This document shows, in pieces, positions 28,626-33,559 of a stretch of 64,000 nt of DNA. Every line of letters starts with the position of its first letter. The stretch's first letter is position 1. The notes under the pieces were generated by a model that did no database searches, was not told where the DNA came from, and saw nothing but the letters and a program-made list of their open reading frames with translations. The DNA comes from Gemmatimonadaceae bacterium. GTDB lineage: Bacteria > Gemmatimonadota > Gemmatimonadetes > Gemmatimonadales > Gemmatimonadaceae. The stretch spans positions 1-64,000 of the forward strand of contig DASUHB010000050.1 in assembly GCA_036273715.1 (NCBI GenBank), read 5' to 3'. A program made the position numbers and the translations under genes.

Positions 28626-29375
28626 TCAGCTCGCCGAGAGCCGCAGCTCGTCCACGTTCACGCGCTCGGCGCGTGTGAGGGCGTAGAGCACGGCGTCGGC
28701 GACGGCATCGGCATCGAGCATCGCGTCGCGCGAGGGGAACCGGCCGGTGCCCGGAAGGTCGCCCCAGATGTCGGTGTCGGTCGGGCCGGGCGAGACGAGC
28801 GTCGCCCGCACGCCGCTGCCGCGCAGCTCCTCGCGCAGCACGTCGTGCAGCGCGCGCGCGCCGAACTTGCCCGGCGAATACGACCCGTTGCCGGGATACG
28901 CCACGCGGTCGGCCACCGAACCGATCGTCACGATGTGACCGCGCCCCCGCGCGCGCATGCCGTCGAGCACCGCGTGCGCGAGATAGAATCCCGCATTGAG
29001 ATTGACGGCGATCGCGGCCGCGAACGCATCGGGCGTGATGTCGGCCAGCGGCTGGGGATGGAAGATCCCGGCGTTGCTCACGAGGATGTCCGGTGCGCCG
29101 CCGAAGGCGAGGGTGATCACCTGGATCGCGCGCCCAACGGCCGCGGCGTCGGACACGTCGCACGGCACCGGCAGCGCCGCTCCGCCTAACTCCGCCGCCC
29201 GTTGGGCGAGGGTGTCGGCGCTGCGGGCGAGCATCGCGACGCGCGCGCCGGCCGCGGCGAGCGCGCGCGCAATCGCCAAGCCGATGCCGCGCGATGCTCC
29301 GGTGACCACGGCGCCCCGCCCCGCCAGCACGGCGCCGGCCGCATCCGGCGCCGCCGGCGACGTGTGTCCCGTCAC
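28626..29375 (-). CDS. Short-chain dehydrogenase, candidate sepiapterin-type reductase
   Basis: 249 residues. Nucleotide-binding TGASRGIG at 25-32, LVSNAG near 104, the catalytic Ser-Tyr-Lys in SVADRV and YSPGK. After the active site the segment [11 protein letters not shown] and the C-terminal [11 protein letters not shown] resemble the sepiapterin reductase of Chlorobium, from memory. GTG 29375 overlaps the folE stop (GTGA), so it is coupled to folE. Being coupled to a GTP cyclohydrolase and a PTP synthase makes a pterin-reducing role likely, but the SDR family is broad and this is inference. Confidence 0.82.
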
Positions 29376-30034
29376 CGCACCGGCGGCGTGCGGCCGTGCG
29401 CCAGATACAAGAACTCCTCGCGCGTGCGCGCGTCGTTGCGGAAAATGCCCCGCACCGCCGACGTCACCGTCTGCGAGTTCTGCTTCTGCACGCCGCGCAT
29501 CATCATGCACAGGTGATACGCCTCGATCACCACACCCACGCCTTTCGGGTTCAGCACATCCTGAATGGCCTGGGCGATTTCTTCAGTTAGGCGCTCCTGC
29601 ACCTGCAGCCGGCGTGCGAACACCTCGACGATGCGCGGCAGTTTCGACAAGCCGACGATCTTGTTGTCCGGGATGTACGCGATGTGCGCCTTCCCGAAGA
29701 ACGGCAGCATGTGGTGCTCGCACAGCGAGTACAGCTCGATGTCGCGCACCATCACCATGCTCGAATGCGGCTCCTCGAACACCGCGTTGTTCACCACTTC
29801 GTGCACATCCATCTCGTAGCCGCGCGTGAGCCACGTGAGCGACTTCGCGACGCGGAGCGGCGTCTTGAGCAGTCCTTCGCGGTCGGGATCCTCGCCGATC
29901 AGCTGGAGCAGGCGGTGCACGATCGACTCGAGCTCCGGGGCATGTTCCGGTGTGTGATCGTCATCCGCCTCGAGCAACGCGCGGCTCACGCGGCCGTCCA
30001 GGCGCGGCGCCTTATTGCCCTTCGTATTCGACAT
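29372..30034 (-). CDS. folE: GTP cyclohydrolase I
   Basis: Converts GTP to 7,8-dihydroneopterin triphosphate, the first step of folate and biopterin synthesis. 220 residues. Zinc ligands Cys105 ([10 protein letters not shown]), His108 and Cys176 (YHLCMMMRG) are in place. The family motifs [18 protein letters not shown] and [13 protein letters not shown] are intact. It overlaps the upstream PTP synthase gene by 23 bases and the downstream reductase by four, which argues for a dedicated pterin operon instead of folate synthesis, where folE usually stands near folP, folK or folB. Confidence 0.97.
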
Positions 30035-30425
30035 AATTGTTGTCGGTCTCCCAGAGGCGCAGGCGCGTGAGCGTTGCCGGACCCATCACCGGAGCCAGCA
30101 CGTTCCAGCACGCGACCACGAGGTTTTCCGCCGTCGGGTTGATGCCCTGCATGAAATCGACGTCGATGTTCAGATTTCGATGATCCATTTTGTCGACGAG
30201 ATGTTCTTCTACCACGTCGCGCAATTTCTTCAGATCCATCACGTACCCGGACGTCGGCTCGATGTCGCCGACGACCGAGACATCGAGACGGTAGTTGTGA
30301 CCGTGCCAGTTGGCGTTGTTGCATGGCCCGAAGAGTGACCGGTTTTCCGAGTCGCTCAAGTCCGGATTGTGCAGACGATGGGCCGCGTTGAACGTGAGGC
30401 GGCGGGTAACGGTGACTCGTGGCAT
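30012..30425 (-). CDS. 6-pyruvoyl-tetrahydropterin synthase (eukaryote-like PTPS)
   Basis: Forms 6-pyruvoyl-tetrahydropterin from dihydroneopterin triphosphate. 137 residues. Zinc ligands are His16, His41 and His43 (WHGHNY), the catalytic Cys is at 35, Asp81-His82 complete the triad, and the pterin-anchoring Glu126 is present (WETDNN). The loop [11 protein letters not shown] matches animal PTPS (CNNxNxHGHNY) and not QueD, which has Cys-x3-HGH. I chose ATG 30425 over an in-frame start at 30482 because conserved sequence begins right there. First gene of the operon with folE and the reductase. Confidence 0.9.
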
Positions 30426-30575
30426 GGAGAAGGATGATGAGACGCGTCGAACGAACGCGGCGTGCCGGCCCTGGGTTCCCATGGAACCGCTTGAGCCGAC
30501 TGCGCCGCGCGTCTATGTTCCGCTCATGAAACCGCCCCGCGAGCGAGGCAATTCTGTTAATACGGACGGCGGCGG

Positions 30576-31796
30576 TTGAAAGTCAAGGTCGCTCTGACGA
30601 CGGCGGCGACCGTGAGCAGCGCAGCGTGGTCGGCGGCATGGACGTTCCCGAGCATGCTGCTCAGCGCATTCCTCGTCGCGTGGGCGGCCGAGGCGGCGCA
30701 GTTCCTCATCGCGCAGGGACTCGCCCTCGCCATCCTCGCGTGGATCCAAACGCTGCCCGAGCTCGCGGTCGAAGCCGTGATCGCATGGCAAGCGGGCCAC
30801 GATCCCGTGAGCTGCTTCGTCGCCGCGCCGCCGGCCGGTTGCAAGTCGCATCTGGCGATCGCGAATTTCACCGGCGCCGTGCGCCTGCTCATCGGGGTCG
30901 GGTGGCCGCTCATCTATTTCGTGGCCGCGTTGGGCCGGCGGAAACACGGGCGCGCGTTCCAGCCGATCCATCTGCACGACGAGCACTCGGTGGAAGTCAT
31001 CGCGACGGGTCCGCCGCTCGTGTACTTCCTCTGGATCTGGCACAAAGCGTCGATCGGCATCGTCGACGCGGTCGTGCTCCTCGCGATGTACGTGGCGTAC
31101 CTGGCGATCCTGTGGCGGTTTCCTCCCAAGAGTGAAGAGTCGCTCGATCAGGCTTCGGCCGTATCGCGTTGGGCATACTCGCGGCCGGGCGTGTGGCAGC
31201 CGATCACCATCGGCGCGCTGTTTCTGTTAGGCGGCGCCCTCATCTATTTTACCGCGCATCCGTTCCTCAATTCGATGCTGGCGGTGGCGACGACGTTCGG
31301 CGTGAGCGAGTTCGTCTTCGTGCAGTGGGTGGCGCCATTCCTCAGCGAGTTCCCCGAGAAGGTGTCGGCATTCCACTGGGCGAAGCGCGTGCGCACGGCG
31401 CCCATGGCGCTCATGAACATGGTGTCGAGCAACGTCAATCAGTGGACCGTGCTCGCGGCGACGATTCCCATCGTGTTCTCGTTCGCGCGCGGCGGGCCGC
31501 ACGCACTGCCGCTCGATCCGACGCAGCGGATGGAAATTCTGCTCACCGTGGTTCAGAGCGTGGTGGCAGCGCTCCTGTTGTCGCGCATGCGTCTGCACTG
31601 GTGGGACGCGACGGGACTCTTCGTGCTGTGGCTGGTCCAGTTCCTGGTTGCCGAATGGCGCGAAGAGGTGGCTCTGGTGTATGCCCTGTGGGCGCTCGCG
31701 ATGCTCGGCTCCTGGATCTGGAAGCGTCCGACGGCGCCGCGCATCTTCTGGGAGCTCATTCGCGGGAGGCGGCGGGTGGAAGGCGTCGCGTCGTAA
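30576..31796 (+). CDS. CaCA-family cation exchanger (Na+/Ca2+-exchanger-like)
   Basis: 406 residues, about ten transmembrane helices. Two alpha-repeats are visible: TLPELAVEAVIAW with ANFTGAVRLLIGVGWP (about 58-110), and APFLSEFPEK with ALMNMVSSNVNQWTVL (about 250-290). Both repeats keep the acidic residue that coordinates the cation. The repeats diverge from classic CaxA/YrbG, so the ion is uncertain. A TTG start at 30576 is the earliest; ATG 30654 is an alternative that begins at the first helix. It diverges from the pterin operon. Confidence 0.8.
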   Translation: MKVKVALTTAATVSSAAWSAAWTFPSMLLSAFLVAWAAEAAQFLIAQGLALAILAWIQTLPELAVEAVIAWQAGHDPVSCFVAAPPAGCKSHLAIANFTGAVRLLIGVGWPLIYFVAALGRRKHGRAFQPIHLHDEHSVEVIATGPPLVYFLWIWHKASIGIVDAVVLLAMYVAYLAILWRFPPKSEESLDQASAVSRWAYSRPGVWQPITIGALFLLGGALIYFTAHPFLNSMLAVATTFGVSEFVFVQWVAPFLSEFPEKVSAFHWAKRVRTAPMALMNMVSSNVNQWTVLAATIPIVFSFARGGPHALPLDPTQRMEILLTVVQSVVAALLLSRMRLHWWDATGLFVLWLVQFLVAEWREEVALVYALWALAMLGSWIWKRPTAPRIFWELIRGRRRVEGVAS

Positions 31797-31834: not shown

Positions 31835-31862
31835 AAAAAAGAGCCCCACCGGAGTGGGGCTC
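31835..31862 (-). terminator. Intrinsic terminator of the small RNA
   Basis: Read on the minus strand: GAGCCCCAC, loop TCCG, GTGGGGCTC, then TTTTTT. An A-run on the plus strand precedes the stem, so termination is strong only for minus-strand transcription. It may also reduce readthrough from the exchanger gene. Confidence 0.85.
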
Positions 31863-32024
31863 GAGAAGTTGGAACGAAGAGGTTTTTTGAAGCCCCGTCG
31901 AATGTATGAGGTCCTCACCCTGCCTTTCGCCTTCCCCGCACTGGGGCATGACGTCAAACAAAGCTTATCGAACCCACCCGAGAGACTTGTTGGCTCAAAA
32001 ATGTGAGCTCTTCGTCCCATTGCC
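31835..32024 (-). ncRNA. Structured small RNA, 6S-like in layout
   Basis: A minus-strand transcript of about 190 nt between two plus-strand genes. TTGACT (32054-32059) and TACATT (32031-32036) are 17 bases apart. From the predicted start near 32024, GGGACGAAGAG (32018-32008) pairs with CUCUUCGUUCC (31881-31871), an 11-bp closing stem with one G-U pair. Inside lie a GCUCA/UGAGC hairpin and a CCCC/GGGG hairpin. It ends in a GAGCCCC/GGGGCUC terminator with six Us. Long closing stem, central bubble-sized interior and length fit 6S RNA, but I cannot align the conserved bubble, so the family is unproven. Confidence 0.65.
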
Positions 32025-32030
32025 GATCGG

Positions 32031-32059
32031 AATGTAGCGTTCACTCAGAAGCGAGTCAA
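32031..32059 (-). promoter_or_regulatory. Promoter of the small RNA
   Basis: TTGACT, 17-base spacer, TACATT on the minus strand. It lies directly in front of the divergent small membrane protein gene (ATG 32065), so the two could influence each other. Confidence 0.7.
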
Positions 32060-32064
32060 TTCAG

Positions 32065-32301
32065 ATGACGACCGTCGAGAAGAAACGATTGCTGTACGTC
32101 GCGGCATATCCCGTCGCGATCGCAATGCTCGGGTTCTGGGCTGTGATGGTGTTCGCATTTTCCGGACCGGGCTGGGTGCATCTCTTCCTCTCGCTCGGTC
32201 TGTTCATTCTCATCTGGCGCATCGTGGCCGGCGGCACCTGGGATGCGTGGGAACGCTACGTGGCCAAGCGCGACGCCGAGGAGCGACAACGCAAGTCGTA
32301 G
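32065..32301 (+). CDS. Small two-helix membrane protein
   Basis: 78 residues with two transmembrane helices (about 9-32 and 36-54) and a charged tail ending in ERQRKS. I recognise no family. Coding character is plausible, with GC3-rich codons and a conserved-looking RIVAGGTWDAWERYVAKRD segment. It starts six bases past the small-RNA -35 element. Confidence 0.6.
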   Translation: MTTVEKKRLLYVAAYPVAIAMLGFWAVMVFAFSGPGWVHLFLSLGLFILIWRIVAGGTWDAWERYVAKRDAEERQRKS

Positions 32302-32323: not shown

Positions 32324-33559
32324 TCAGCGCGCGAGCCAGACCAGCATCACGACGCCCCAGGCCAGCGTTAGGAGCGTCACCGGCACGCCGGCCTTGAGCA
32401 CGTCGCCGAATCGCAGCGCCACCCCGCGCGCCGCGGCGCGCTCGGCCACGATCAGCGTGGCCATCGATCCCAGCAGCGTGAGGTTCCCGGCGAACGTCGA
32501 GCTCATCGCCATGACGAGCCAGATGAACCGTGCGTTAGGCAGCTGCGGCACCACCGGACGCCAGAGAATCACCGCCGGCACGTTGGACACGAGGTTCGAG
32601 AGCGCCGTCATCGCGGCGCTCGTCACCGCGGCGTCGTGCCACGGCGCGCCGTGCAGCGTCGACGCGGCGCGCGACGTGAGATCCACGAACACCGGCGCCG
32701 ACTCCACCCCGCGCATCACCACGAACAACGCCGCGAAGAACAACAACAGCGACCATTCGACGTTGGCGAACGCGGCCGCCGGGTCGCGGTTGCCGACCGC
32801 GATCATGAGCGCGCCCGCCGTGATCGCCACCACGGGCAGCGACAGTCCCGCGAGCCATGCCGCGAGCGCGCCGGCGAACAACACGAGCGCGCGGGCGACG
32901 AGCCCGCGATCCATCGGCCGGCCGGCCGGCGGCGCGGCAACGGATGGGAAGGGGCGCGCCAGATCGCGACGAAAGAGCACCGCCAGGACGCCGTAGACGA
33001 TGGCCAGCCCGCCTAACGACGGCAGGACGAGCAGCGCCAGGAAATCGCGGTAGGCGATGCCGCTCGAGATCCCGATCAGCATGTTCTGCGGATTGCCCGT
33101 GATGGTCATCGCGCTTCCCACGTTGGCGGCGAACGCGATGCCCAACAGGTAGGGCAGCGGACGCGTGCCGAGGGGCTCCAGCGCGGCCAGAACGAGCGGC
33201 ACGAACACCAGACAGACCGTGTCGTTGAGAAAAACGGCGGACAGGAGCCCGCTGGCCACGATGATGCCCGCGAGCAACGCGTGCGGCGATCGAAAGCGCC
33301 GCGCAATCCACACTGCCGCCCACTCGAAAAATCCGCCGAGCTCGAGATAAGCGACCAGCAGGAGGACGCCGAGCAGGAACACGATCACATCGATGTCGAT
33401 TGCTGCGTAGGCGGCACTCGGCGACAGGCCGCCCAGGACCACCATGGCGACCGCGCCGAGGAGCGATGCCGCCGGCCGGTTCAAGCGCACGCCCGGGACT
33501 TGCTGTGCAGCAATCAGGACGTACGTGACGACGAAGATCGCGAGTCGAACGCTGGTCAC
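32324..33559 (-). CDS. ArsB/SLC13-type anion permease
   Basis: 411 residues, about ten helices. Landmarks of the ion transporter superfamily are LNDTVCLVFVPLV near 115, ANVGSAMTITGNPQNML near 155 and SNLVSNVPAVI near 320. These hairpin-type regions occur in ArsB, CitMHS and related permeases; the substrate (arsenite, citrate or dicarboxylate) is uncertain. A longer frame runs to 34018 but overlaps the real NDUFA9-like gene. GTG 33559 or TTG 33580 are the plausible starts; I use GTG because the first helix follows directly. Confidence 0.8.
   Translation of the reverse strand: MTSVRLAIFVVTYVLIAAQQVPGVRLNRPAASLLGAVAMVVLGGLSPSAAYAAIDIDVIVFLLGVLLLVAYLELGGFFEWAAVWIARRFRSPHALLAGIIVASGLLSAVFLNDTVCLVFVPLVLAALEPLGTRPLPYLLGIAFAANVGSAMTITGNPQNMLIGISSGIAYRDFLALLVLPSLGGLAIVYGVLAVLFRRDLARPFPSVAAPPAGRPMDRGLVARALVLFAGALAAWLAGLSLPVVAITAGALMIAVGNRDPAAAFANVEWSLLLFFAALFVVMRGVESAPVFVDLTSRAASTLHGAPWHDAAVTSAAMTALSNLVSNVPAVILWRPVVPQLPNARFIWLVMAMSSTFAGNLTLLGSMATLIVAERAAARGVALRFGDVLKAGVPVTLLTLAWGVVMLVWLAR

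Follow-up and report, generated by a model that had tools for sequence, protein, structure and literature searches.

A short minus-strand feature in a 64-kb stretch of the genome of a soil bacterium of the Gemmatimonadaceae (the window) is best explained, with high confidence, as the single 6S RNA (ssrS) gene of this genome. 6S RNA resembles an open promoter, sequesters the housekeeping RNA polymerase holoenzyme, and is released by synthesis of a short product RNA (pRNA) (PMC8876501, PMC12005410, PMC9130861). Judged from sequence, membership of the window RNA in this family is secure by homology, because its rod covaries among relatives, aligns in register with both the Rfam 6S model and Escherichia coli ssrS, and has orthologues that pass the Rfam cut-off.

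Promoter, transcript and terminator

The original prediction described a minus-strand promoter with a 17-bp spacer, an 11-bp stem joining the two ends of the RNA and a U-tailed terminator, which together delimit a transcript of about 190 nt in a gap with no other explanation on that strand. All of these elements were recovered, the transcript as a prediction (Table 1). TTGACT-17-TACATT is the sole promoter-like site in 900 bp on both strands, as against 0.1 in shuffled sequence. The closing stem has 11 pairs in the window RNA, one of them G-U, and the predicted transcript falls within the length typical of 6S RNA (about 180-200 nt between a promoter of its own and the terminator). No credible minus-strand gene was found in the gap: most of the minus-strand reading frames there overlap the exchanger gene in antisense, and the indels of relatives across the gap are not multiples of three.

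Terminator-like sites are present at 85 of 95 loci in relatives (35 of 95 after shuffling), and promoter-like sites, with at least 8 of 12 matches, at 58 of 95 (10 of 95 after shuffling). Upstream of the RNA body, TTGAC and TAnnTT are the only elements conserved among relatives; the terminators are present with divergent sequences, and the sequence of the RNA body is conserved.

Table 1. Features of the probable 6S RNA locus and its neighbours, in window positions.
Feature	Position	Strand	Remarks
-35 element TTGACT	32054-32059	-	promoter search; TTGAC kept here in most relatives
-10 element TACATT, 17-nt spacer	32031-32036	-	pattern TAnnTT kept in relatives, spacer sequence variable
Predicted primary 6S RNA transcript, ~190 nt	31835-32024	-	start inferred from the distance to the -10 element
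Conserved 6S RNA body, 153 nt	31868-32020	-	match to model R1, 161.7 bits
Closing stem P1, 5′ strand GGGACGAAGAG	32008-32018	-	covaries
Predicted pRNA template AUUUUUGAGCCAAC (UUUUUGAGCC-AAC)	31989-32002	-	aligned with E. coli GAGCCGAU
Helix P2, 5′ strand UUUUUGAGCC	31992-32001	-	makes up most of the predicted pRNA template as well; aligns in register with UGAGCC of E. coli 6S
Central bubble, 5′ strand	31975-31991	-	31988-31975 doubles as the 5′ strand of the collapse helix
Internal (apical) arm with near-invariant CAUGCCCCAGUGCGGGGAAGGCG region	31910-31974	-	conservation, covariation
Central bubble, 3′ strand	31896-31909	-	RNAalifold consensus; holds UACAUU (31906-31901)
Helix P2, 3′ strand GGGCUUCAAAAA	31884-31895	-	RNAalifold, covariation
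Closing stem P1, 3′ strand CUCUUCGUUCC	31871-31881	-	covaries
Intrinsic terminator stem-loop	31841-31862	-	U tract 31840-31835; T6 directly after the stem
Small ORF, 78 aa, no Pfam match	32065-32301	+	conserved divergent neighbour
Na/Ca-exchanger gene, 1.2 kb	30576-31796	+	separates the RNA from PTPS
PTPS (6-pyruvoyl tetrahydropterin synthase) gene	30012-30482	-	usual downstream co-directional neighbour
FolE (GTP cyclohydrolase I) gene	29372-30034	-	comes after PTPS

Secondary structure and covariation

The segment 32030-31835 folds at -82.3 kcal/mol (z = -4.36), and none of 200 shuffled sequences was equally stable. The RNAalifold consensus consists of the closing stem, P2, a large central bubble and the apical arm, which is the rod architecture that 6S RNA requires, and the closing stem, P2 and the apical arm all covary through compensatory changes. 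In the family alignment, which was not fitted to a model, 96.2% of cells are paired and 17 of 33 pairs have changed on both sides; none of 500 shuffles gave covariation as high, and controls in which the pairing partners were slid scored far lower. The phylum-wide alignment, which was fitted to a model and leans towards it, has 94.7% of cells paired and two-sided changes at 27 of 33 pairs, again with no shuffle as high and with the signal lost when the partners are slid. For P1, both sides have changed at 7 of 10 pairs in the family sample and at 10 of 10 phylum-wide. Covariation across relatives, on which the original prediction had been made to depend, is therefore present.

A small hairpin that RNAalifold placed in the 5′ side of the bubble (columns 38-50) was weak and was dropped. 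The 3′ side of the bubble holds UACAUU, the same hexamer as the gene's own -10 element; it may serve as a -10-like element of the promoter mimic, but its conservation is only partial.

Homology with 6S RNA

The original prediction hesitated between a 6S RNA and a new class, and proposed a search with the Rfam models for 6S RNA, RNase P and SRP. The alignment to the 6S model (RF00013) spans the whole window RNA and keeps UGAGCC and the GGGGAAGGCGAAAGG stretch in register. Its score of 18.4 bits lies far below the gathering cut-off of 46.4, and no Rfam family (RNase P, SRP and tmRNA included) reaches its gathering score anywhere in the window. Weak matches to suhB, STnc100, istR and other families either depend on the terminator hairpin or score far under the respective cut-offs.

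The distance to the Rfam model is bridged by relatives and by models built from the lineage itself. Among relatives, the best genome-wide Rfam 6S matches (up to 27.5 bits) fall on homologues of the window RNA in 11 of 13 cases. A covariance model built without Rfam from 32 copies, exclusively of the window's own family (R1), gave ssrS the highest score (17.4 bits) within 3.2 kb of E. coli. Two genera belonging to a different family (f8) of the same class have an R1 locus (64.5 and 62.4 bits) that also scores 56.6 and 51.4 bits with Rfam 6S, above the cut-off, and the same locus in another class scores 42.8 bits. A phylum-wide model (R2), run exhaustively over 50 kb of E. coli, placed ssrS first at 22.4 bits, with the next match at 11.0, and the alignment was full-length and in register.

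Like its E. coli counterpart, the window RNA has a closing stem, a P2 with UGAGCC, a template position that reads GAGCC-GAU in E. coli and GAGCC-AAC in the window, and an apical motif (GAGAAGCC and GGGGAAGGC). It differs in that its sequence score is low, its pRNA is predicted to begin with G, not A, and PTPS-FolE takes the place of fau/ygfA as the operon next to it. One likeness to Bacillus subtilis 6S-1 is the C at the predicted pRNA start, which in B. subtilis is C40 and initiates with GTP (PMC8876501); two 6S RNAs are present in B. subtilis (PMC12005410), whereas one gene was found in the window genome.

Two other readings of the RNA have to be weighed against these results, and both appear very improbable. 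Ms1 of Actinobacteria is structurally related to 6S RNA, binds polymerase and likewise contains a central bubble (PMC9130861), so an Ms1-like RNA would have a 6S-like structure and bind the core enzyme. Ms1 is about 300 nt long, with extra hairpins at both ends, binds core polymerase and was described in Actinobacteria (PMC9130861), in contrast to the 153-nt body and ~190-nt transcript here; moreover, orthologues of the window RNA pass the Rfam 6S cut-off, and the window holds no match at the gathering score of any Rfam family. A structured small RNA of a new class, resembling 6S in outline only, has about the same slight probability. It would account for the sub-threshold Rfam score of the window RNA, but it is contradicted by the sequence-level, in-register homology to ssrS at the pRNA template and apical region and by the intermediates at the same locus that exceed the 6S cut-off, and it is already largely refuted. 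The molecule is of a kind that is already well known and is not a new class. 6S RNA is typically abundant, and its level rises in stationary phase.

Distribution and genomic neighbourhood

The RNA was found by blastn in 45 of 60 relatives. Matches to a pattern for the apical arm were present in 55 stretches of public genomes, all of which belong to Gemmatimonadota where the title bears a taxon, with two lacking a taxon name. Of 297 Gemmatimonadota genomes, 273 give an R1 match to the RNA, nearly always a single one, and R2 recovers two of five re-tested genomes that R1 had missed. The Rfam 6S cut-off, by comparison, is reached in none of the 60 close relatives and in one of 31 sampled Gemmatimonadota genomes. 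These copies have diverged too far to be called by the usual Rfam model, which would leave them unannotated. A literature search returned no paper joining 6S RNA with Gemmatimonas or Gemmatimonadetes; an earlier computational mention is possible, as the surveys of Wehner 2014 and Barrick 2005 lay outside the search. Two strong model matches occur in a single genome in G071 (L160, L161), G240 and G268, and such double matches are possibly paired 6S-1/6S-2 genes.

The locus has a conserved setting. Wherever the genes were detected, the RNA precedes PTPS (74 of 74) and FolE (68 of 68) on the same strand, at a median distance of 126 bp from the PTPS match, and the small ORF lies upstream of the RNA and divergent from the 6S promoter (56 of 56 loci). 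An exchanger gene between the RNA and PTPS is a feature of the window's genus. A 5′ leader or cis-regulator of the PTPS-FolE operon would explain this invariable order, yet it is the least probable of the readings considered, given the terminator-like site just 3′ of the RNA in 85 of 95 loci, the oppositely oriented 1.2-kb gene that intervenes in the window, and a closing stem that makes the RNA a free-standing rod. The ygfA/fau neighbourhood of 6S RNA, common in Proteobacteria, is missing here, a point against the 6S reading. In E. coli ssrS precedes fau, likewise a folate-related gene; the parallel with PTPS-FolE is noted only. Elsewhere in the window, ARAGORN reports a tRNA-Gly at 32757-32843 (+) within a citrate-transporter-family gene on the opposite strand, which is probably a false positive.

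Two competing states of the central bubble

The original prediction could not verify the open central bubble by eye. The consensus structure from relatives shows the bubble, but the minimum-energy fold of the window sequence is a collapsed form, and the open-bubble rod therefore rests on comparison. In constrained folds on alignment columns, the two states of the window RNA lie close together in energy, the rod at -59.1 kcal/mol and the collapsed form at -61.4 kcal/mol.

The alternative collapse helix pairs columns 35-48 with columns 144-158, excludes P2 and adjoins an extension of the apical arm. Together with this extension it is 86% paired in the family alignment, with nine pairs changed on both sides, and by pair counting, the stronger test, the covariation of the two together is higher than in any of 500 shuffles or any slid control. 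Where the helix competes with P2 (columns 35-40) the changes are one-sided only, and two-sided changes begin at 41/152. The energy of the helix in individual sequences is suggestive only (mean -9.5 kcal/mol vs -7.5 for shuffled sequences; p ≤ 0.05 in 16% of sequences). A further pairing, helix X (columns 42-48 with 144-150), may partly close the bubble. In B. subtilis and Aquifex, release involves pairing of the 3′ strand of P2 with the 5′ bubble (PMC8876501), and the window RNA resembles B. subtilis 6S-1 in this bubble-collapse helix.

The pRNA template and its start

6S RNA requires a pRNA template at the 5′ edge of the central bubble, and by sequence GAGCC-AAC/GAT lies there, over GAGCC-GAU of E. 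coli. In the window, UUUUUGAGCC-AAC occupies the position of UGAGCCGAU in E. coli, and the predicted pRNA is 5′-GUUGGCUCAAAAAU, starting opposite the C at 31989 on the minus strand. The trinucleotide that follows GAGCC (31989-31991 (-) in the window) is AAC or GAT in most Gemmatimonadaceae. A motif search over 104 distinct sequences gave AAC in 52, GAT in 40, GAC in six, AAT in one and TAC in one, with four unread, two of which were read by eye as AAC (L011) and GAC (L094). Within a set of 68 Gemmatimonadaceae sequences that was chosen as AAC or GAT types, 29 have AAC and 39 have GAT. The carriers of GAC are deep-branching members of the family and family f4.

The predicted start of the pRNA alternates repeatedly within this one family between GUU (GTP start) and AUC (ATP start). 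Positions +1 and +3 of the predicted template change together, and on a PTPS+FolE tree parsimony counts eight changes at +3 and seven at +1 (single-method tree, 54 taxa). No structural partner was found for the AAC/GAT coupling, the next best column having 0.55 bits of mutual information. A tentative reading of these sequences, held with somewhat less than even confidence, is that the 6S RNA of one family may have switched repeatedly between a GTP-started form (AAC, 5′-GUU, as in B. subtilis) and an ATP-started form (GAU, 5′-AUC, as in E. coli). With +1 and +3 coupled and intermediates confined to deep branches, the nucleotide whose level triggers release of the polymerase would have been re-chosen several times.

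Proposed mechanism and significance

By analogy with established 6S biology, the rod would mimic an open promoter and occupy RNA polymerase in complex with the housekeeping sigma factor. Once nucleotides become plentiful, the polymerase would copy the RNA from its predicted start into the short pRNA, and this synthesis would open P2. The freed 3′ strand of P2 could then pair with the 5′ side of the bubble in the collapse helix, as in B. subtilis and Aquifex, and the polymerase would be ejected.

For the Gemmatimonadota, a lineage-specific model fills an annotation gap where the standard 6S model mostly falls short. The 6S RNA of this phylum also provides a covariation-backed case of two competing 6S states, and the coupled switch of the predicted start would serve as a natural test of whether it matters which nucleotide initiates the pRNA.
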